From: Dinochytrium kinnereticum
Taxonomy: Eukaryota; Chytridiomycota; Chytridiomycetes; Chytridiales; Chytridiaceae
Direction of reading: 5' to 3'
Assembly (NCBI GenBank): GCA_027604005.1
Contig: JADGJT010000271.1
Span: 3,240 to 27,436, forward strand
DNA length: 24,197 nt
Shown: positions 4,785-24,127 of the stretch, in pieces
How the letters are laid out: the number at the start of each line of letters is the position of its first letter
Numbering within the stretch: the stretch's first letter is position 1
Translations under genes and position numbers: made by a program
Notes under the pieces: model-generated
What the model was told of the DNA's origin: nothing
Databases searched by the model: none
The model's input: only the letters and a program-made list of their open reading frames with translations

Positions 4785-5507
4785 TCAGGTGAAGAAGCAG
4801 GTGACAACAGTGCACTGAGGCTTCTTTCTATCCTTCGTTTTCCCAGAAGAAAATGCCGCACCACATCCAACCCTTTCCTGCCTCGGTATAACGAATGCTC
4901 GGTTCCTGTTATCGTACCAATACTTGATAATGGTGTTGAGAGTAGGATTCGGCCTCTTCGATCCCTTCATAGCAACGATCCCCTGAGACATAAACTTTCC
5001 GTCAACTTTATCATAATGAGCAGTGCAGCCCTCATTCGCCAGCTTCTGCGCACGCTTCTGAGCCTTTTCCACCAACCCTTTGTTCACTGTGACCAAGCTC
5101 ATGCTGAGAGTGGCCCTCTCCCTGTTGATCCTTTTTCTCATCTTTTCGTTCCAGCCCAACAGCCCGGATGAGACCGCGCGGTCTTGCGCATCCCTCATGG
5201 CCGCGGCGGCGTCGTCATCAATACGAATGTCGGCTTGGAAATCTTTGGGGAGTGAGTCACCCAGGCCTTGGGATTCGAGATTTCCCCAGGGAGAGGAATC
5301 GCTGTCCGAGTCCATGATTTCCGGAAGGTCGTTGAGGTCCGGCGGGATGATGCTCCTGTCCATCGCGCCGCTGTCAATGTTGTCGAGGTCGGACCAGGCC
5401 ATGTTGTTGAGGGAGTCAGAGGACATGCTGTCCATCATGGCTTCAGACGGGATGTTGAATGCCGAGACCGAGGCGATCAGGGCGAGGAGAATGGTGCTAG
5501 GCAGCAT
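4785..5507 (-). CDS. Secreted protein with degenerate CAP (SCP/PR-1) domain, copy 1
   Basis: An intronless gene of 240 residues. A signal peptide is clear (MLPSTILLALIASVSA, cleavage likely after residue 16), followed by an acidic, Ser/Asp-rich stretch to about residue 110. The C-terminal half resembles CAP domains (PR-1, SCP, Pry): a helix around RKRINRERATL, a second helix around LVEKAQKRAQKLANEGC, a central SQGIVAMKG in the place of the usual GEN motif, a helix ending in YWYDN, then VGCGAAF and C-TVVT-C, the typical paired strands. CAP proteins are extracellular; several bind sterols or lipids. The canonical His and Glu of the CAP cavity and the HYTQVVW motif are not recognisable, so activity by the usual CAP mechanism cannot be assumed. 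Its paralogue lies divergently at 6564-7292, with the same signal peptide pattern and the same order of four cysteines. TATTAATA lies about 95 bases upstream. Confidence 0.75.
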   Translation of the reverse strand: MLPSTILLALIASVSAFNIPSEAMMDSMSSDSLNNMAWSDLDNIDSGAMDRSIIPPDLNDLPEIMDSDSDSSPWGNLESQGLGDSLPKDFQADIRIDDDAAAAMRDAQDRAVSSGLLGWNEKMRKRINRERATLSMSLVTVNKGLVEKAQKRAQKLANEGCTAHYDKVDGKFMSQGIVAMKGSKRPNPTLNTIIKYWYDNRNRAFVIPRQERVGCGAAFSSGKTKDRKKPQCTVVTCFFT

Positions 5508-6487: not shown

Positions 6488-6495
6488 ACATAAAA
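6488..6495 (+). promoter_or_regulatory. TATA-like box for CAP-like copy 2
   Basis: ACATAAAA, about 70 bases upstream of the ATG at 6564. The ATG at 6495 overlaps it, which is one reason to prefer the later start. Confidence 0.35.
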
Positions 6496-6563
6496 TGCAG
6501 CCAACAACCATCGCGTTCACCACACAATTCAAACATCGACAAAGCCTACACAACTCAAAGATC

Positions 6564-7292
6564 ATGCTTCCAATCACTCTCTTCCTTGCCCTGGTGGCCT
6601 CAGTCTCGGCCGCAAGCATCCCTTCATCAGACTCCACCAACCCTTTCCTTGACGCCAACGGTCCCCCAAGCTCCAGCGACCTAGGTTTCGACTTTATTCC
6701 ACCCAACGACGACATCTCTTCCCCGCTCTGGGGCATCCTCCCGGATGCAGTGGAAACTCGCGAAGCCTTTGAAAACGATGGAGAAGAGATGTTGGATAAC
6801 GAAAGCGAACACGCTGGAGAGATCTCTGGCGTTGATTCCAACGACGGCAATGAGATCCAGTCTCGCGCGACAATTTTGGGCGTTGACTTTGGGTTTAACA
6901 GAGAATTCACGGACAAAGTCAACTCCGAGCGAAGACGACGCGGTTTGAAAACGCTACAGTCAAGTTTTACCCTCGCGAGGCTTTCGGATATCTTCCTGAG
7001 ACAGATCGTAGCGAAGAGAGAATGTAAAATGATGGCTTGGGACAAGCTCAAAGAGTACAAGATGAGCCAGAACTATTACATGGAAGATCGACCTCGCTCC
7101 ACCGATTTCATGGTCAATGCTTGGAAGAAGCAGAATCTGAAGGCAGTTGCAGACTCAAAGCAGACCATGATTGGTTGTAAGCGGACGTCTTGGCTTGTGA
7201 GGGGTGTACGGACCTGTCATGTTGTGATCTGTACCATGGCTGATAACTCCTCGAAGATTCCAAAGCTACCTATTCCCGGAGTAAGAGGGTGA
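6564..7292 (+). CDS. Secreted protein with degenerate CAP-like domain, copy 2
   Basis: An intronless gene of 242 residues. I chose the ATG at 6564 because it opens directly into a signal peptide (MLPITLFLALVASVSA) matching copy 1 nearly residue for residue; the in-frame ATG at 6495 would place 23 polar residues before it. After an acidic Ser/Pro/Asp-rich region (to about residue 105) comes a CAP-like part: FTDKVNSERRRRGLKTL, equivalent to the first CAP helix (NxxR), a second helix with IFLRQIVAKREC, then MIGCKRTSW and C-HVVI-C near the C-terminus. The four cysteines fall in the same order as in copy 1, but the rest is strongly diverged and the CAP cavity residues are not visible. It was recognised as CAP-like mainly through its neighbour. 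Divergent duplication followed by fast divergence is the likely history, as expected of a secreted effector-like or cell-surface protein. Function unknown. Confidence 0.7.
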   Translation: MLPITLFLALVASVSAASIPSSDSTNPFLDANGPPSSSDLGFDFIPPNDDISSPLWGILPDAVETREAFENDGEEMLDNESEHAGEISGVDSNDGNEIQSRATILGVDFGFNREFTDKVNSERRRRGLKTLQSSFTLARLSDIFLRQIVAKRECKMMAWDKLKEYKMSQNYYMEDRPRSTDFMVNAWKKQNLKAVADSKQTMIGCKRTSWLVRGVRTCHVVICTMADNSSKIPKLPIPGVRG

Positions 7293-12330: not shown

Positions 12331-14546
12331 ATGAAGACCTCACGCCGTCTTCTCATTCGAACCGACTCAGAGCTCTCAACTCCCCGTGAAAGCGTTGGGC
12401 CGGCAGCCCCACCGTCACCGCGTCTCCCACCCAAACGAAACCCAAATTTCGAGCACCTAACGGACAGGCCAAGCAAAGACCCCATCTCGCTTCTCAAATC
12501 TCTTCATGTCGCCCCATCGTCTTCTGCGACCGACATCTTTCACTCAACCCACTCTTTTCCTGAGGTTGAGGATCTTGAAGCCTCGACGATGGGGTTAGCC
12601 TCAAAGTTGAGTTCAGGCGAAAAACTTGACGACCCTTTTAAGTCACCTCCACCCGTGTCCTTGCCAGAAGATCGGGCCATTGACATGGCTGACCTCCCGC
12701 CTCGCGCGACCATCGCAGATTTACTGAAGAGGATGGAGGCTGAGGGGATTGTGGGGAGGCTGGAGGTTCCTGCGAGGGATGGGGTGAAGGTTGGAGGAAA
12801 GTCTGTTAGCAGCGATGATGCTGTTGAGGATGTTGTTGGACAAGTTGGGGAAGGGTGGGTGGAAGTTGTGTTGGGGAGTGATAAGGCTTTCAGTGTATTT
12901 TTGAAATCATCACGGGAGGGTCTGAATGATGTTGGGTCAAGGGATGCCCTGCATACAAGATCGAGTGAGAGTTTAAATGTTAGGCCCAGTGAGGATTTTG
13001 GTGTCGAAAGTGAAAACACTATGGACGGACACGTTGTGGAGAGCAGACGGTGAGTATTCACGCGATGATCTTCCTTCTTTCTTTTTATTTTTGGAGTCCA
13101 CTCCGTTATGTCTGTTATGTCGGTCAATCTAAACAGTCTTATCCAGGTTATCCCAAGCCAAGCCAGAGCCAAACGTGACTTTGAATGATTCAGATGGACT
13201 CCAACAACGGCAACTGAACGACTCTGAAAGGTGATATCTAAATTACCTAAATTACTAGCTTCTCACTCATTGACATGTTGGTTGTTCAGACCTGACGAAA
13301 CGGTTGATACAATGTCGGATGACCGCATGGAGAGGTATTCGTAGATTTAACCCTCTGATTTCTTTTTTGTGATGGTCCTTGTCGACTAAATAGAAGAAAG
13401 AGAGTTTCAATTCCTAACAACTGTTTAGTAACTTCTACCCTATAAGGACGGCTATGATTATAACACCAACATCCACAAACACACCTGTTGCAAGCCCAGA
13501 GCCGGCCCAGATCGAGAGGTACGTCCCTTCCCTCTTCAACCAGGCAATCATTACAGTTTAGCGTCGTCAAAAGCTAACTAAGCCCCATCTTGTTTAGGGA
13601 TTTCAATGGTGAAGATCAAGCCATGACAAATGTCTCAAGTCCATGCGAGGATGAAACCAACCGGTAAACCCTATACAAACCTAGATTCAATAACCCACCC
13701 CCCGCTGACCTTCAAAAGTAGCCAGTTGAACTACCACAGCATGGCGGTCACCCCCATCGAACCCGACCCCTTCAACCCCCCACAAAACCGACGCGACTCC
13801 AGACGCGCTTCCAAGAGGTGAGTCCTTCACCACGTGAAAAAACAAAACAAAAAAAAAGATATTCCAACATCCCAGCAGACTCCTTCCAGATCAACATCCA
13901 CCTCCCCTACAACCGCATCCTCCCCATCACGATAGTGAAGGTCGCCACAATCTCCACATTAAAGTCCCTGATCTACCCAGACCTCGCCGTCCTCCCCGAC
14001 GATCTCACCTTGTTCTCGTTGTACCTCGGGGAAAGAAACCTGCGTGATTCAGAGATCGTCGGGGAGGTTGAAAATATTGAGGAGCTTGGCGTTCGATTGG
14101 TGTTGGGGGATGGAGACGATGATAAGAGGAATGGGGGGGAGCTGGTGTTTTTGGAAAGGTAAGAAGCCAAACATTCATCGGTTCGCCACTAACACGCAGC
14201 ACAACCCTTCCCCTTAAGATCCAAAACCCTCACCCAACCAACCCAACCCTTCACCTGCAAAGCCTGTCAAACCCCACGCACAGAATGCATCTCCTGCAGT
14301 CGCCCCTTCTGCGGAACCTGCTCTCGCGCCGTAACCGCAAAATCATTGGAAGAAGGTGTTAAAAAGCCCATGGTTCAATGTACAGGGTGTCTCACGGTCA
14401 AGGCAGACAGGGAAACAAGAGCCTTAGTGATGAAGCGTAGGGTGATTATTGTGCTGGTGTTCATCTTGGTGGTGCTTTTGGGGGCTTGGGTTGTTTTGAG
14501 GAGTGGTGGGGGTGGGGAGGGTTTTGCGTTTGTGAAGGCCAGGTGA
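12331..14546 (+). CDS. Unrecognised tail-anchored protein with ubiquitin-like region and CxxC zinc module
   Basis: Eight exons join to 576 residues: 12331-13049, 13147-13230, 13290-13334, 13429-13518, 13598-13663, 13719-13817, 13859-14158 and 14219-14546. The ATG has a good context (ACCATGA). Residues 1-367 are polar and low in complexity, probably disordered. About residues 376-450 look like a ubiquitin-like fold: FQINIHLPYNRILPITIVK, then a TLKSLIY helix, LFSLYLGERNL and a final VRLVL strand. Residues 481-525 hold four CxxC pairs (CKAC, CISC, CGTC, CTGC), enough for two zinc ions. Residues 543-561 form one hydrophobic segment (VIIVLVFILVVLLGAWVVL) 15 residues from the C-terminus, with KRR before it, as in tail-anchored ER, peroxisomal or mitochondrial outer-membrane proteins. 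I do not recognise the family. All seven introns are phase 2. The intron at 13818-13858 (41 bases, A-rich) is the least certain. Confidence 0.72.
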
Positions 14547-14755
14547 TGGGATGGAATGGGGTGGTTTGAAGCTTGGAGTTGTTTTAGATGGTTGCTTTTG
14601 TCAAGTCCGCTCACTTTCTTCCTTATTCTTTTTCTTGTTCTTTGCTTTCGACGTAAACCCCTACACGCCTGTGTTGGTTCAGTCTGCCTCTCTTCCTTCA
14701 TTAGACCTGGTTTAAAAGAATTCCCCATCATCAGTGTTAAAGGGTATAAGAAAAG

Positions 14756-14761
14756 AATAAA
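14756..14761 (+). terminator. Candidate poly(A) signal of the tail-anchored protein gene
   Basis: AATAAA, about 210 bases downstream of the stop codon at 14546. Confidence 0.35.
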
Positions 14762-15430
14762 GATTAGCAGTGCACATCCAAGATAGGTCAACAACCCTTT
14801 TCACCTTCACTTCATGGGGTGATAAACGGCCAAAACAGCATCCATCAATCTCAAATACGATAAAAATCTGCCTAACGTCAAGAGGCAACAGGGGCGGGAG
14901 ATGCCCTCCTTTATTCAAACCACAGAAAAGGCAACGATAAAAATAAAAAAGCAGGCGTCATAAAAAATAAAAACAAAACAACAAACAAGAAAACACATCA
15001 ACCAAACGCCAAGGTGCCCAAACATCTGAATGGCTAAGAAAATCAAAGAATCTTTAACCTCGCTTAAACGGACTTAAAAGAGAAGAAGGAGCAACTAAAT
15101 CATCACAAGCATCGACAGAACCACAGATTTTAGAACTCAAGCCATACCTCTCTTCAAACAAAAAACATGGAACGTCGACTTAAGCAAAGCCCAAACCAAC
15201 CCATCCTCTCCCTTAAAAAACCACCGTTTCCACTTTTCAATAAACAGTCAGGAAACAAGGGGAAAAAAACAGTGGGGGTTAAATGAAGCGATCAAACCCC
15301 AACATATTAAAAGGCAATAACTCAAGTAGGCAAGCAACTTCTGGGGTTGGGCAAAGAGAGGCCAAAAAAAAACAAAAAAAAACATAGAAAAGAACGGAAA
15401 AAGAAAGGATGCAACTTTTTTTTAAAAAAA

Positions 15431-15460
15431 GAAGAAGAAGAAGAAGAAGAAGAAGAGAAG
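15431..15460. repeat. GAA trinucleotide microsatellite
   Basis: About eight uninterrupted GAA units followed by AGAAG, next to poly-A and, 20 bases further on, poly-T tracts (15480-15506). The homopurine run lies in the convergent 3' region. Confidence 0.9.
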
Positions 15461-15605
15461 GGGCAAAACAGCAGGAACACTTTTTTGTTTTTTTGTTTTT
15501 TTTTTTGCACAGGGATTACTTTGTTCGATGAAAGGAGAGACGGATTCATAAAGAGTTTTACAAAGAACCGGGAGGAGATGGAGGAAGCATTGGGTCTAAA
15601 GGGGA

Positions 15606-17209
15606 TTAAAAAACCTCCTCTTCAAGCTCAGCCCCACCGTTCTCTGCCGGAATCTCAAAGCCATCCTCGGTTCTGTACATGATAGCCTAGCGAGAGTGAA
15701 CAAAATGTAAGAACGAATTAAATTACAGAAAAAGGGGGAGTAATAAACCATCCTCCTCATTAAAAAGTAATAATAATAATAATAAAAACAAGCAAGCAAT
15801 ACAGCATAAAAAACAAAAAAAAAAAAACAGCGGCAAGCAACACAGCAAAAAACAACAACAACAACAACAACAATGAAACAAGTCAAACCTGAATATTCTT
15901 CAAAGCATCCTCCAACCCCCCCGTAGCCTCTCCAATATCCAACTGAGTCTGCACAAGAATCTCAATCTCTCTCAACTTTCCAAAATAAAATTCCCTCTCC
16001 CTCTCAGCCTGCTCAACAGCTCCCCTCAACTCATTAACCTGAATCGTCATATCCCCAACAACCCTCTGATACTCCGCCTCAATCTCCGCCTTCTCCTTCT
16101 CCCATCCTGCTCCAGCGCTCGCGGACCTCGACAAATTGCCTCCATTCGCATGGTGACCGGCGGCCGGGGCGGCACGAGCCGACGGGAGGGAGCCATTGGA
16201 AGACCGTGTGGGCGCTCCTTTGGGGACGGTCGCGACGGAGGGGTTCGAGGTGGCCTTTTTCATGGCACCGGATGTGGTACGGCTGGGCATCTTTGAAGGA
16301 GAAGCGGGGGCGGCACCTTCGCCTTTTCTGCGGGAGATAGCGTCATAGACACCACCGGGGAAATATTGGTCCCAGAATCTATTTTTTTTTTTTTTCATGA
16401 TCAGGTTAGGGTGGTGATCGAATAAAGGAAGGTGGTAGAGAGACAAACTCACTTCTTCATCCACTGGAGAAACTCGAGGTTGTCCTGGAACTTGCACTTG
16501 ACCAGCTGCTGTACGGGGATGCGGTTGTCAATCTTATGCTTGTCAAAGACTGACTGCAGGACCTTGAAGTTCTGAATGTATTCGTACTCGTGCTTTGCGG
16601 CAAACTTGACCTTTGACAGAGGGACCTAATGTTTGCGATATTCAAAATAAAGGCAAAGCAAGAAAAGAGAGGTTAGTGGCAGGAGATGAAGGCTGAATTA
16701 GTGGCGAAAAGGACAAAGAAAAAAGTAAATAAATAAAGGATGCGAAACAGGCATCCCAGTGCCATTGAGGCAGACCCGCAGGAGACTCTGTCAATGGACA
16801 TCCATCAGCTTCAACCTTCCTGGACGCGCGCATCACAAAGTCCACATCAAAGGCATGTTCAGCACCAAATTCGGACACGCCCAAAATTCACTCCAGAGGG
16901 TCCTCTCCACATCGATGCAGCCCCCAACGAGCCCAGACGGATCGCCAACCCCATCGCTTCAGCACAGCCTCCAAAGAGGAGCCGCTCAGACCAGCGCCCA
17001 TCCAACGCAACCCCCCGCAATGCCAAAAGGCAAGCAGCCTGCCAAACACCAAACGCAGAAACAAGCAAAGAAAGACCCCTCACATCTCTGTAGATAGAGT
17101 CCATAATCTGGCAATGCACGGCACCAGTCCCACACTGCTCCACCTTGGTGTATCCAAGCTGCAGGAGGTCATTCATCCACGCCAGCAGTTCTGTCCGAGA
17201 TTCGCTCAT
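15606..17209 (-). CDS. EB1 family microtubule plus-end tracking protein
   Basis: Four exons join to 289 residues: 17209-17084, 16625-16453, 16378-15889 and 15686-15606. The protein matches EB1 (Bim1 in budding yeast, Mal3 in fission yeast), which binds growing microtubule ends and recruits other tip proteins. The calponin-homology domain covers about residues 1-115: [51 protein letters not shown] and [19 protein letters not shown]. Residues 120-190 are a basic Ser/Pro/Ala-rich linker, the usual second microtubule contact. Residues 192-245 form a coiled coil leading into [10 protein letters not shown], the hallmark of the EB homology domain. The chain ends in EEEVF, an acidic tail with a terminal aromatic residue like the EEY/F motif that binds CAP-Gly proteins. 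Intron 1 is 458 bases; intron 3 (202 bases) carries AAT and CAA repeats. The start is divergent from the cobS-like gene. Identification is secure. Confidence 0.95.
15768..15784. repeat. AAT microsatellite in EB1 intron 3
   Basis: About five AAT/TAA units inside the last EB1 intron. Confidence 0.8.
15851..15872. repeat. CAA microsatellite in EB1 intron 3
   Basis: About seven CAA/ACA units, close to the donor of the last EB1 intron. Confidence 0.85.
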
Positions 17210-17970: not shown

Positions 17971-19328
17971 ATGCCGCATGGAGACGGGGGACACCCGCCA
18001 GCGCCAAAGAGAGAGAAGGACGCTGGCCCAACCATCCAGGATCAGGAGAACCAGGATGCGCCAGCTGGCGCTGCGTCAAAGTACAGCGTGTACCCAAAGC
18101 CCCAGGAGGGCCCCAGCTATCCCGAGGAGGAGAGGTCTTCCGGGTTCTTTGCGAGGGAGATCACGGCCTTTCTCTCGGGGGTGATGGTGCGTGCCACTGT
18201 CATCTGTTCCCATCCTTGTTTTTTGTTGGTTTTTTTTTTTTTTGCTTTTGCTATGTGTGTTGGGTGTAAAGGAATGAGTGAGGGCTTGGGGTGAACAAGA
18301 TGGCGAAAGCTAACCTATTGGTGGCAAGAACAGTTCTTTACAAGGATTCGAGTTCCATCATGGGTGAATCACAGCATGTACTGGTTGAGCTTATCAACCG
18401 CCTACTTTCCTCTCATCGGTAAGAGCCCCACTACGTACCCCACATTAACTCAACCATGTCAACTCCACTACAACAACAATTAAAAAAAGGCGTCATCGTC
18501 GGCCTCCACGGAGCAATGGCCTACGCTCTCACGTCAACCATCTGGTCATCTCAAATCGCCGCAATCGCCTACACCATGAGCACGGTCTACCTCACCGGTG
18601 CGTTCCACGAGGACGGTCTGGCGGACATGTTTGACGGGTTTGGAGGAGGGTGGACACGGGAGTCTGTTCTTCGAATCATGCGGGACTCGCGAGTGGGGAC
18701 CTATGGGTGTCTTGGCTTATTTCTGGTCGTGCTGCTGAAGATTGCTGGTGTGGTGGATCTGGCGGATCGAGTGACCGGTGCTCAAGGGTTCATGGGTGCA
18801 TCTGCCACTGGAGTTTTCATGGATCAGCACCCGCTGGTGTGGCTGCTGGAGGGGAAGCAGAGCGACATTCTATCAATGATCCGATCCACGCCTCCGCTCC
18901 TTCGAATGGTGGGAAGCTTTGTGGCCGCCCACGTTCTCGGCCGTTGGTCCTGCACCTACCTCCTCTGGCGATACCCCTACGTCGAGAACCATTCAGCCAA
19001 AGGAAAAGAATTCCTTCTGAAGGTAACAGCCACCAGGCTGTTCTGGACGACCCTCTCAGCGATCGCGATGCTCTCGATCACGCTCCTCGGAGTCCCGGCG
19101 TTCTGGGAGACGCTTGCAGGGGTGTTTGGTGTCAGCTGCATCGTCACCCACATGATGGGGCTCCGGACGGTCAAGGTCATTGGGGGCGTGATCGGGGACT
19201 GTCTTGGGGCCACGAACCAGGTGGTTGAGATGGGCACGTACCTTGCGCTGTGCGTTGACTGGGGCCGCGCGTTTGTGTCTGTCGCGTCGCTGGCGTTGAA
19301 TTCGAGGTGCGGCGACGAGGAGCTTTAA
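17971..19328 (+). CDS. cobS: CobS-type cobalamin synthase (adenosylcobinamide-GDP ribazoletransferase)
   Basis: Three exons join to 379 residues: 17971-18186, 18334-18418 and 18490-19328 (introns 147 and 71 bases). In prokaryotes CobS joins adenosylcobinamide-GDP and alpha-ribazole (or its phosphate), completing the nucleotide loop of vitamin B12, and is a multi-pass membrane protein. Motifs in order: FFTRIRVPSW and AYFPLIG (residues 73-101, the usual N-terminus of CobS), FHEDGLADMFDGFGGGW (from 139, the Asp-rich signature), LRIMRDSRVGTYG (to 173), and GDCLGATNQVVE (336-347). The hydrophobic segments between them fit the family. The first 60 or so residues are an extra polar, acidic, Pro-rich N-terminus that does not look like a mitochondrial presequence. 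Residues 181-225 seem longer than in bacterial enzymes. All catalytic motifs are intact. The introns show it is nuclear, not bacterial contamination. No other B12 gene is visible here. Family assignment is strong; the reaction in this organism is inferred. Confidence 0.92.
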
Positions 19329-19720: not shown

Positions 19721-20888
19721 ATGACAAGCAGGCCGATGGACTCACCCGAGATCATCAAGAACTCACTCTGCGCCGTCGCCTCCATCCTCCTCATTGGCGG
19801 ATACCACACATGGCTGGCCTACGTCGTCAAGCGTTACCCCTCCAAAACAGTCTTTGGCATCACAAATGAAGCAAGGTGAGAGCTCATGCCACGCCATAGC
19901 AGGGCCATCCCAGTCATCCCTTTCTCCTAACAACGACACTGTCAAACCACCAAAAAAACGAAAAACAAAAACCAAATGAACGCAGGAGGGTATGGGTCTA
20001 CACCATCATGAAGAAGAAGCAAGACATCCTGGCCGTTCAGTCGCTTCGTAACTTTATCATGGCTTCGTCGTTGCTGGCAACAAGCTGTGTGTTTATCATC
20101 TTTGGATTTGTGGCCTTCTTTGGGACGATCGGGTCGAGGAGGGATACGACGAACCCCGATAACCCTCTGTCGACCAACTTTTCGTTTGTGGAGGATCCGC
20201 TGTTTGGGCTCAAGGTGAGGTGATTTTGCTGCATAAGACAGTGAGGGTGCATTGACAGGTCACTAAGGGTTTTCGTGGTTGTCCCATGATTAATCGGCAA
20301 TGCGAACCCGCCTCCATTCATCGTCATTTTAGAAGAATGCTTAACGTAGTCTCTAACGCTTTTGGCTGTCTATCATTCAGATGGTCCTTGTCATTTCGAT
20401 CTATTTCCTCGCCTTCTTTTGTTTTGCGCAAGCCATCCGATTCTACAACCACGTCGGTCTTGTCATCAACAGTGAGTTCACCCACTCCCCTTCCCTCTCC
20501 GAAAGAAAGAAAAAAAATCCGACCCGCCCTCTTCCTCACCCTCACCACCAATCTCAAAAACTAAAAAATCTTCATTCAAGCCTCACTGAAAGACGAGCTC
20601 ATCCCTGAAGCCGACGAGCGCCAAAAGATCACCTACCAGATGATGTGTCCCTCCCTCGTCGCCGATCTTCTAAACCGAGGATCAAGATTTCAAACCATTG
20701 GTCTCCGCGCTGTATTTTGCAGCTTCCCGCTCATCGTTTACCTCTGGGGTCCTTACTTTCTCATCGCTAGTTCGGTCGCTGTCGTGATCCTGTTAAGGGT
20801 TTTGGACATGAATGTGTCGGATTTTGTGCCGCCTTCTGGGAGGACTGATGAGGAGGTTGGGGGGGTGTCGAGGATGAGGCAGGCTTAA
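19721..20888 (+). CDS. DUF599 family multi-pass membrane protein, copy 1
   Basis: Four exons join to 260 residues: 19721-19875, 19986-20214, 20381-20471 and 20581-20888. The first exon is short (51 codons) and was found by matching copy 2. The family (Pfam DUF599) is known from bacteria and plants and has no established function. Four to five membrane helices are visible: residues 14-35; 66-90 after KKKQDILAVQSLRN, the most conserved family motif; 128-148 before AIRFYNHVGLVIN; and two near 215-245 around LWGPYFL. The basic KKKQD loop and TVFGITNEAR precede helix 2. The start at 19721 fits the leader, although an ATG at 19736 is possible. The tail after the last helix is short. It has the same orientation as cobS upstream and copy 2 downstream. 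Exons 2 and 3 (229 and 91 bases) equal those of copy 2 in length and phase, so the two arose by duplication. Family is firm, role unknown. Confidence 0.85.
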
Positions 20889-22279: not shown

Positions 22280-22616
22280 TGGGGTTTTTAGAGAAGAAGA
22301 GAGAGAGAAAACCCAGCGACCTCTTCAATAATTATGAATAAACATTTCCTTTTATGATTATCACCAGCGCACATCTCCATCCCTCACCAGCATTGGAAAA
22401 CACGCAAGGAGTCCATGAAACGGTCGCCGGGAATATCCCTCGAAACATTCTGCCAACAACACAAGGTGCACTGATCAACATTTCTGCGACAATCCCCTGA
22501 CAACACCTCCGACACCCGACATCCGACCTCCCGATCCCCACAACCCCCCCTTCCCCCCCTTCCCTCCCTTGCCTTCCCCCAACACCCTCCGCATCAAGTC
22601 TCCAAAGCGCCCGCTG
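22280..22616. other. Short intergenic and leader of DUF599 copy 2
   Basis: After the poly(A) signal of the preceding gene the region becomes C-rich (CCCCCC runs at about 22543-22580), typical of the leaders in this window. No gene was seen. Confidence 0.55.
22337..22342 (+). terminator. Poly(A) signal of the small secreted protein gene
   Basis: AATAAA, 58 bases after the stop codon at 22279. Confidence 0.5.
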
Positions 22617-24127
22617 ATGCCACCAATGGAGTACATCATCACAAACGCCGTCTGCGGAGGCGTCTCGGTCGTCTTGTTTGCTGCCTACCATGCCTGGCTC
22701 AGTCACATCATCCTCAAATCCCCTCACAAGACCGTGTTCGGCTTAACCAGTCAAGCAAGGTACTCTCCAACACCTTTCTCTCCGTCGTTCGAGAGCCCAT
22801 CTTTATTATCTGACTTTCGACACCTCACACACACAAAAAAAAAAAAAAAAAAAGACGAGCATGGGTCGCCGCAGTCATGCAGAAGAAGCAAGACATTCTC
22901 GCCGTCCAGTCACTGCGGAATTGGATCATGGCGTCCTCATTTTTGGCCACCAGCGCCGTCTTTACGATTTTTGGGTTCCTGGCGTTTTTTGGGAACGTTG
23001 GCTCGAGGAGCGACACAACCAGTCCGACGAATCCGTTGGCGGGGTTGTTCTTCTTTGTGGAGGATCCCGTGTTTGGAGTTAAGGTAGGCCTCATTCTTTT
23101 CTTTATGCTGTTTCTTTGCTATTTTATTTTTTTTTGCCAAGGGTGGGGGTGTTGTTGGCAGTTGAGGGTGGGTGGTTGGTTGGTCAGGGGATATGAGTGC
23201 AGAGCGGTTTCCCTTACATTAATCGGAAAAGGCGGGGGAGGATAGAGTGCCGCATCTGGAAGAAAGTCTTCTCCTTTTCATTTGAATGCAGTCCGACGTT
23301 GCATATTATAAATTCTGACCGTTTCCTCTAACACATCACGAACTTCCACATTCACCCCCCCCTTCCAAACAAAAGGTTTTCCTCATCATCGCCATCTACT
23401 TTTTCTGTTTTTTCTGCTTCACACAAGCCATAAGGTTCTACAATCACGTCGGTCTCGTCATAAACAGTACGTTTCACCCCCCGTAATCCCGCGCCGAAAA
23501 TATATCTAAAGTTGTTGACCTCTTCAGCCCAAATTGCTGTCGAACAACTCGAAACCCTTGATGAAAGAACTCAGGCAACCTATAAATCCATCACCCCCAA
23601 ATCAGTCGCAAGGATGCTTGATCGAGCGTCAATGTTTCAGACGATTGGCTTGAGGATGTATTATGCCAGGTGAGGATCTATCCCCCCATGAAAGCACTTC
23701 TGTTCCTCCTAACAATCAATGAACGAAACGAATCTCCCCTTTACAAAAAAATTATAGTTTCATGGCGATTGCCTACATCTGGGGCCCCTACTTCCTCCTT
23801 GGGATCACCATCATCCTGCTCCTCATGCTCAGATCCCTTGACCTCAACGTCTCTCATCACTTTGAATCAGAAACGCACCGAAACTCTGTCATGCACTCGG
23901 CTGAAAGCATTGTGATGCCTACCACCAAACGGAGGTGGTGGTGGTGGAGGAAGGAGGAGGGGATGGGGAAGGAGACTGAGATGAGGAGACGGGTAGTGGG
24001 TGAGGATCAAAATCTGGAGATGGGGGAGAGTAGAGTCAGGTTGGATCCGGCGGGTGGCGGACAGGAGGGATGGGCGGTGGCTAGCATGCAGGGAGTCTCT
24101 TCAGAGTCGTTCAAGTGTGTGGATTGA
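22617..24127 (+). CDS. DUF599 family multi-pass membrane protein, copy 2
   Basis: Five exons join to 324 residues: 22617-22759, 22855-23083, 23376-23466, 23528-23669 and 23758-24127. It is a paralogue of the gene at 19721-20888, with the same helix order, the same KKQDILAVQSLRN motif and the same AIRFYNHVGLVIN segment. Exons 2 and 3 have the same lengths as in copy 1. It differs in having an extra phase-2 intron (23670-23757) inside the last helical pair, between MYYA and FMAIAYIWGPYF. It also has a C-terminal tail of about 95 residues that copy 1 lacks, rich in charged residues and containing four tryptophans in a row encoded by a TGG repeat. The tail is probably cytosolic and disordered. 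Start: ATG at 22617, or the ATG at 22626 with a better context (ACCAATGG). The tail reads to a clean stop at 24127. Function unknown. Confidence 0.85.
22836..22853 (+). repeat. Poly-A tract in intron 1 of DUF599 copy 2
   Basis: About 18 A bases directly before the AG acceptor at 22853-22854. A purine tract in place of the usual pyrimidine tract next to the splice site is unusual. Confidence 0.8.

Follow-up and report, generated by a model that had tools for sequence, protein, structure and literature searches.

A predicted cobS gene with two introns in a chytrid genome

The window analysed here, a stretch of 24,197 nucleotides from the chytrid Dinochytrium kinnereticum (Chytridiales, Chytridiomycota), carries on its forward strand, at positions 17971–19328, the complete gene for a protein of 379 residues that is predicted to be CobS, the membrane-bound adenosylcobinamide-GDP ribazoletransferase. 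The gene consists of three exons, which when joined form a single open frame of 379 codons plus stop. Exon 1 (17971–18186, +) encodes a polar N-terminal extension and the start of the CobS domain and ends ...AFLSGVM at a GTGCGT donor; it is followed by intron 1 (18187–18333, +; 147 bp, GT-AG with GTGCGT...ACAG, phase 0), a splice that the proteins of relatives support. Exon 2 (18334–18418, +; FFTRIRVPSWVNHSMYWLSLSTAYFPLI) contributes 28 residues that run into the first long helix, and is separated by intron 2 (18419–18489, +; 71 bp, GT-AG with GTAAGA...AAAG, phase 1) from exon 3 (18490–19328, +, stop codon at 19326–19328), which carries the two loop motifs of the family. In all, 14 GT/AG combinations would keep the frame, and the one chosen is backed by protein homology: the residues of exon 2 are identical at 28 of 28 positions in Phlyctochytrium planicorne (P0002) and P. 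bullatum (P0003) and at 26 of 28 in Blyttiomyces (P0004), and 15 of the 17 fungal proteins compared match 15–28 of them. The remaining two, P0001 (6/28) and P0017 (7/28), are both apparently faulty gene models. P0001 is the public Dinochytrium model (HDU67_004941), which is the same as our spliced protein on either side of the exon 2 region, skips exon 2 and translates part of intron 2 instead; of the 21 residues in the stretch unique to it, at most 7 are matched in any of the 16 other fungal proteins compared. The model P0017, from Chytridium lagenaria, seems to be faulty at the same place. Judged from these comparisons, exon 2 as chosen is correct. The introns, by their GT-AG ends and by the conserved protein that their removal restores, are of the spliceosomal type, in agreement with what a sequence-only reading of this locus had proposed.

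The same reading had claimed a complete CobS in a fungus, and the profile search places the protein inside this family: Pfam CobS (PF02654) matches it with 155.3 bits (cut-off 23.2) over profile positions 2–207 of 207. The motifs FHEDGLAD, RDSRVGTYG and GDCLGA, quoted earlier as intact, are all present in the spliced protein. The HxDxxxDxxD motif reads HEDGLADMFD (residues 140–149) and the GxxGDxxG motif GVIGDCLG (residues 333–340), and both are intact in all 14 fungal CobS proteins scanned, which come from 18 other fungal or fungus-like entries (P0002–P0019). According to the available text of PMC8092220, variants in these two motifs of Salmonella enterica CobS lose function or are weakened in vivo. 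That text also describes CobS as catalysing the penultimate step; the sequence-only reading had called it the last enzyme of nucleotide-loop assembly. Compared with the bacterial enzyme as described there, Dinochytrium CobS belongs to the same Pfam family over the entire profile and has the same two loop motifs; it differs in a long polar N-terminal extension, a middle stretch that is longer and variable, the presence of introns and scores under the prokaryotic naming cut-offs. The structure predicted for the orthologue P0002 from a 40-row alignment (mean predicted local distance difference test score, pLDDT, 85.1) consists for the most part of long helices, and the segment equivalent to exon 2 leads into and begins the helix at 74–103. 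Simple hydropathy analysis of Dinochytrium CobS gave four strong segments, and a sequence search for a relative with a solved structure returned none.

Partner enzymes in the Dinochytrium genome

The genome (22.4 Mb, 558 contigs) was searched with profiles for the partners of CobS, using 14 genomes as controls; these searches read single exons, and a gene split into very short exons could escape them. CobU is encoded on contig C3 by a single open frame (168.9 bits with Pfam; 171.2 bits with an NCBIfam equivalog whose cut-off is 161) that is 100% identical to HDU67_005506, and its P-loop GGARSGKS is found in 12 of 12 fungal CobU entries. CobT is present in two copies, one on contig C3 and one on contig C389; both genes have three introns, at corresponding positions, and their spliced proteins are 72% identical. 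One copy is 100% identical to HDU67_006767 over the aligned 91%, and the RLGEGTGA end is present in both spliced copies and in 11 of 14 scanned CobT entries from fungi. On C3, the public CobT model (L002) opens, in its first exon, with a stretch (P0242, residues 16–62) that weakly resembles an accessory protein of IS66 (21.3 bits, below the cut-off of 74), which may be a fusion, a mis-annotation or chance. CobU, CobT and CobS, the set for nucleotide-loop assembly, are together in one genome with methionine synthase MetH, methylmalonyl-CoA mutase and cobalamin adenosyltransferase. Among the partners named in the sequence-only reading, CobU, CobT, MetH and the mutase were recovered, and the adenosyltransferase in addition, whereas CobC stayed below its cut-off.

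Four enzymes gave no match in the genome: MetE (control positive in 10 of 14 genomes), CbiB (8 of 14), BluB (14 of 14, above cut-off in only 3) and CbiZ (5 of 14, above cut-off in 4). Two of these, CbiB for the late ring and BluB for the synthesis of 5,6-dimethylbenzimidazole (DMB), are markers of de novo B12 synthesis, and both were not found; other ring-forming genes were not searched for. Because no MetE was found, dependence on B12 is predicted, and Dinochytrium would be an obligate B12 user. DMB is likewise predicted not to be made by the fungus.

Distribution and phylogeny of fungal CobS, CobU and CobT

Related proteins were taken from the best 120 of 7,383 matches for CobS and from the best 120 matches each for CobU and CobT; these lists rest on predicted proteins, and gaps in them are not losses. 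CobS was found in at least 18 named fungi, whose genera we take to belong to Chytridiomycota or Blastocladiomycota (looked up for three), CobT in at least 16 (15 species) and CobU in at least 12 (11 species), the last in chytrids alone among the matches listed. All three enzymes are present in at least five species, namely Dinochytrium, both Phlyctochytrium species, Chytridium lagenaria and Nowakowskiella JEL0407, and the scope of the sequence-only reading, which concerned a single gene, needs to be widened to this extent. The Blastocladiomycota have CobS, and CobT in Paraphysoderma, with no CobU among the matches listed. Some public records, such as that of Polychytrium, already bear the automatic name 'vitamin B12 biosynthesis CobS'. 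Three metagenome proteins of 586 residues (P0285, P0347 and P0350), in which a nitroreductase-family domain (PF00881) is joined to CobT (PF02277), are possibly BluB-CobT fusions.

Trees were rooted by midpoint; the rows outside the fungal groups are bacterial when they bear a name, the rest being metagenome proteins without one, and no named algal or holozoan CobS is among them. In the CobS tree (85 rows, with P0001, P0011 and P0017 excluded as duplicate, partial or faulty), 17 fungal-labelled rows (16 named and the metagenome protein P0007, assigned there) cluster with the metagenome protein P0023 with support of 100/100 on a stem of 1.08. The three Blastocladiomycota are grouped (97/92), as are 12 chytrid rows including P0007 (85/95), and the positions of Polychytrium, Quaeritorhiza and P0023 lack resolution. 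P0023, a CobS of 240 residues, falls within the fungal group, so that the fungal label needs two changes instead of one; its source may be a chytrid not yet sequenced or some other eukaryote. The 12 fungal rows of the CobU tree (79 rows) make up a single clade (100/99), next to which one outside row drew a long-branch warning, and the 16 fungal rows of the CobT tree, which was built by a quick method from 71 rows with those of more than 450 residues excluded, form one clade with a Shimodaira-Hasegawa approximate likelihood ratio test (SH-aLRT) value of 100. The CobS lineage covers Chytridiomycota and Blastocladiomycota. On these trees fungal CobS, CobU and CobT each form one lineage apart from the bacteria sampled, and the trees do not give the source of these lineages, since they contain no named algal or holozoan CobS. 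The choice between transfer and retention that had been left open is thus only narrowed, to the history of a single fungal CobS lineage.

Pairing of cobU and cobS and neighbouring genes

CobU and CobS carry adjoining locus tags in P. planicorne and Podochytrium JEL0797; in P. bullatum their tags are two apart, and in Chytridium lagenaria the two lie on contigs of equal size, which we took as one contig. CobU and CobS are therefore on one contig in four of the seven species with both listed, the others being Dinochytrium, Nowakowskiella JEL0407 and Siphonaria. The Salmonella cob operon contains cobU, cobS and cobT, and across 80 bacterial CobS loci the flanks (up to 1.5 kb) hold CobU in 33 and CobT in 64. 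Some chytrids resemble such bacterial clusters in having CobU and CobS close together; they differ in that CobT lies on an equal-sized contig in only one of the four paired species (Chytridium) and in that the Dinochytrium pair is split over duplicated segments. Given these bacterial loci, the chytrid cobU-cobS pair could descend from a bacterial cluster, although they are suggestive only.

In the window, cobS has as its divergent neighbour an EB1-family gene with more than one exon (15886–17209, −; ATG at 17209; PF03271 on 15886–16497), and the start codon of cobS lies 761 bp upstream of that of EB1. On contig C3 a duplicate of EB1 adjoins cobU; the two genes there run in one direction, and 269 bp lie between the stop codon of cobU and the start codon of EB1 that follows it. 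The nucleotide identity of this duplicate to the window is 73.3% over 15887–16629 and 85.5% over 17079–17209. More broadly, window positions 14216–17209 and C3 positions 92155–102525 share four blocks, arranged in the same order and 72–85% identical in nucleotides, of which three lie within or next to the EB1 gene, and C389 and C3 share nine collinear blocks with 68–84% identity (L025/L026, L023/L024), each contig carrying a CobT. These collinear segments point to a large-scale or whole-genome duplication in Dinochytrium. Probably a large duplication copied an EB1-cobU-cobS arrangement and reciprocal loss then removed cobU from one copy and cobS from the other; no relic of a lost cobU or cobS was seen.

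The other neighbours in the window are also of eukaryotic kind and include, by Pfam, vinculin-family, ankyrin, DIL-domain and DUF599 proteins. A protein of the vinculin family (PF01044, 88.1 bits) has its C-terminal part encoded at positions 1172–1774 (−), and two similar tandem genes lie 3' of cobS (19721–20700 and 22569–23245, +), of which the second matches DUF599 (PF04654) and the first is alike by eye. A secreted-type protein with a CAP domain (PF00188) is encoded at 4788–5507 (−); the gene at 6495–7289 (+) has a similar N-terminal layout and no Pfam match, and is possibly a diverged duplicate.

Proposed role and origin

Because the searches for CbiB, CbiZ and BluB gave no match, the gene set is most naturally read as serving salvage or remodelling, as had been suggested from the cobS sequence. 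We consider it likely that CobS, CobU and CobT of Dinochytrium attach the lower nucleotide to scavenged cobinamide. Following the bacterial pathway, CobU would phosphorylate scavenged adenosylcobinamide and then load GMP, CobT would convert DMB, or another base, to alpha-ribazole phosphate, and CobS would join both activated halves at a membrane; DMB or alpha-ribazole would be taken up from outside, and the product would supply MetH and methylmalonyl-CoA mutase. We infer the activities, the substrates, the order of the steps and the sources of cobinamide and DMB, the steps themselves being those of the bacterial pathway. The nearest eukaryotic parallel is in algae, some of which (Chlamydomonas, Pavlova) have CobT and CobS, with remodelling of cobamides by Chlamydomonas, according to the available text of PMC4850488. 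The set described here differs in its fungal host, in including CobU, which that text nowhere names, and in the failure to find MetE, on which the predicted B12 dependence rests.

A number of observations weigh against cobinamide salvage by these enzymes. The best score of Dinochytrium CobS with the NCBIfam prokaryotic CobS equivalogs is 201.9 against a cut-off of 273, which is a naming threshold and not a defining trait, and its score with TIGR00317 (82.8) is likewise under threshold (110); CobT is also below its NCBIfam prokaryotic cut-off (249.5 vs 319.3). Two further CobU patterns are not uniform, as the one around the histidine, whose role in the enzyme we assume, is found in 6 of the 12 fungal entries and SNExGxGIVP in 4 of 12. 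CobC gave four weak matches, all under the cut-off (best 89.7 vs 162.9 bits; control positive in 13 of 14 genomes, above cut-off in 2), and MMACHC gave none in a search in which the controls were silent too. As no BluB was found, DMB would have to come from outside. Among the matches listed, Chytriomyces and Entophlyctis have CobU and CobT and no CobS, and other chytrids have CobS without CobU. Finally, the assembly may be incomplete.

That CobS, together with CobT, mainly serves to exchange the lower ligand in cobamides that do not suit the fungus, pseudocobalamin for example, is possible, though we regard it as rather doubtful. Besides the failure to find CbiZ and CbiB and the algal parallel, in which an organism with CobT and CobS remodels, the available text of PMC7733943 reports that remodelling in Vibrio cholerae involves CobS, and such an ability would be useful for freshwater life near cyanobacteria. 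However, direct remodelling would not need CobU, which has been retained; in vitro data for V. cholerae CobS are noted as lacking in the part of PMC8092220 available, and the genes for algal remodelling are described in PMC7733943, as far as available, as not yet identified. Remodelling and cobinamide salvage are compatible and not mutually exclusive. Contamination by bacterial DNA, or decay of the gene, is very improbable: the Siphonaria records do carry the label UNVERIFIED_CONTAM, but the two introns, the eukaryotic neighbours (EB1, DIL domain, vinculin family, DUF599), the orthologues in many chytrids and the intact frame and motifs lead us to reject it in the main.

With regard to origin, one old transfer of a bacterial cobU-cobS (perhaps also cobT) operon piece into an ancestor of the zoosporic fungi, with later vertical inheritance, acquisition of introns and losses, has in our judgement not quite an even chance. 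It accords with the single lineage formed by each of the fungal enzymes, with the adjacent or nearly adjacent cobU and cobS of three other chytrids, with the gene content of the bacterial flanks and with the single open frame of Dinochytrium CobU; against it, the trees show no specific donor, the long fungal CobS stem goes with weak deep forks, and CobU, found in chytrids alone among the matches listed, may have had a history different from that of CobS. Sphaeroforma, reported in the available text of PMC4850488 as having the closest non-algal sequence to Chlamydomonas CobS, is a hint of eukaryotic kinship and speaks rather for retention from an early eukaryotic or opisthokont ancestor, which we hold to be possible, at somewhat less than even probability. 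Such retention would match the vertical history proposed for B12 use outside the Dikarya (PMC8085122, in the text available), the occurrence of CobS in algae, and its presence in both Chytridiomycota and Blastocladiomycota with the three Blastocladiomycota apart from the 12 chytrid rows. Yet no named non-fungal eukaryote appears among the best 120 CobS or CobT matches, most of which are entries without an organism name.

Significance for B12 metabolism in zoosporic fungi

Fungi were for a long time held neither to make nor to use B12, and use has been shown in early-branching lineages (PMC8085122, in the text available), which, like Dinochytrium, have MetH, the mutase and the adenosyltransferase. 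That study names eight B12 enzymes, and CobS, CobT and CobU do not occur in its main text as available. Among the papers listed in searches of the open-licence literature none was on fungal CobS, CobT or CobU; this is a body from which subscription journals are largely absent; the sequences are already public, and the finding seems to be undescribed. What this analysis adds is the set formed by CobU, CobT and CobS, together with the negative search for MetE, the lineages of the fungal proteins, a corrected model of the cobS gene and the splitting of the cobU-cobS pair.

As a tentative picture that we think less probable than not, the final arm of B12 synthesis may have stayed functional in zoosporic fungi and been lost elsewhere in the kingdom. 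This arm would have entered or been retained before the split of Chytridiomycota and Blastocladiomycota, would have begun as a linked pair of cobU and cobS, and would allow B12-dependent chytrids to make true cobalamin out of cobinamide and pseudocobalamin supplied by cyanobacteria or algal prey, making parasitic and saprobic chytrids remodellers in aquatic B12 cycling. The chytrid set would add fungi to the eukaryotes capable of the finishing steps of B12 synthesis, so far reported for algae, and it raises the questions of whether a fungus can live on cobinamide, whether it remodels pseudocobalamin and whether eukaryotic CobS has a single source. Chytrids are common parasites of phytoplankton, and the answer would therefore bear on which organisms supply usable B12 in lakes.
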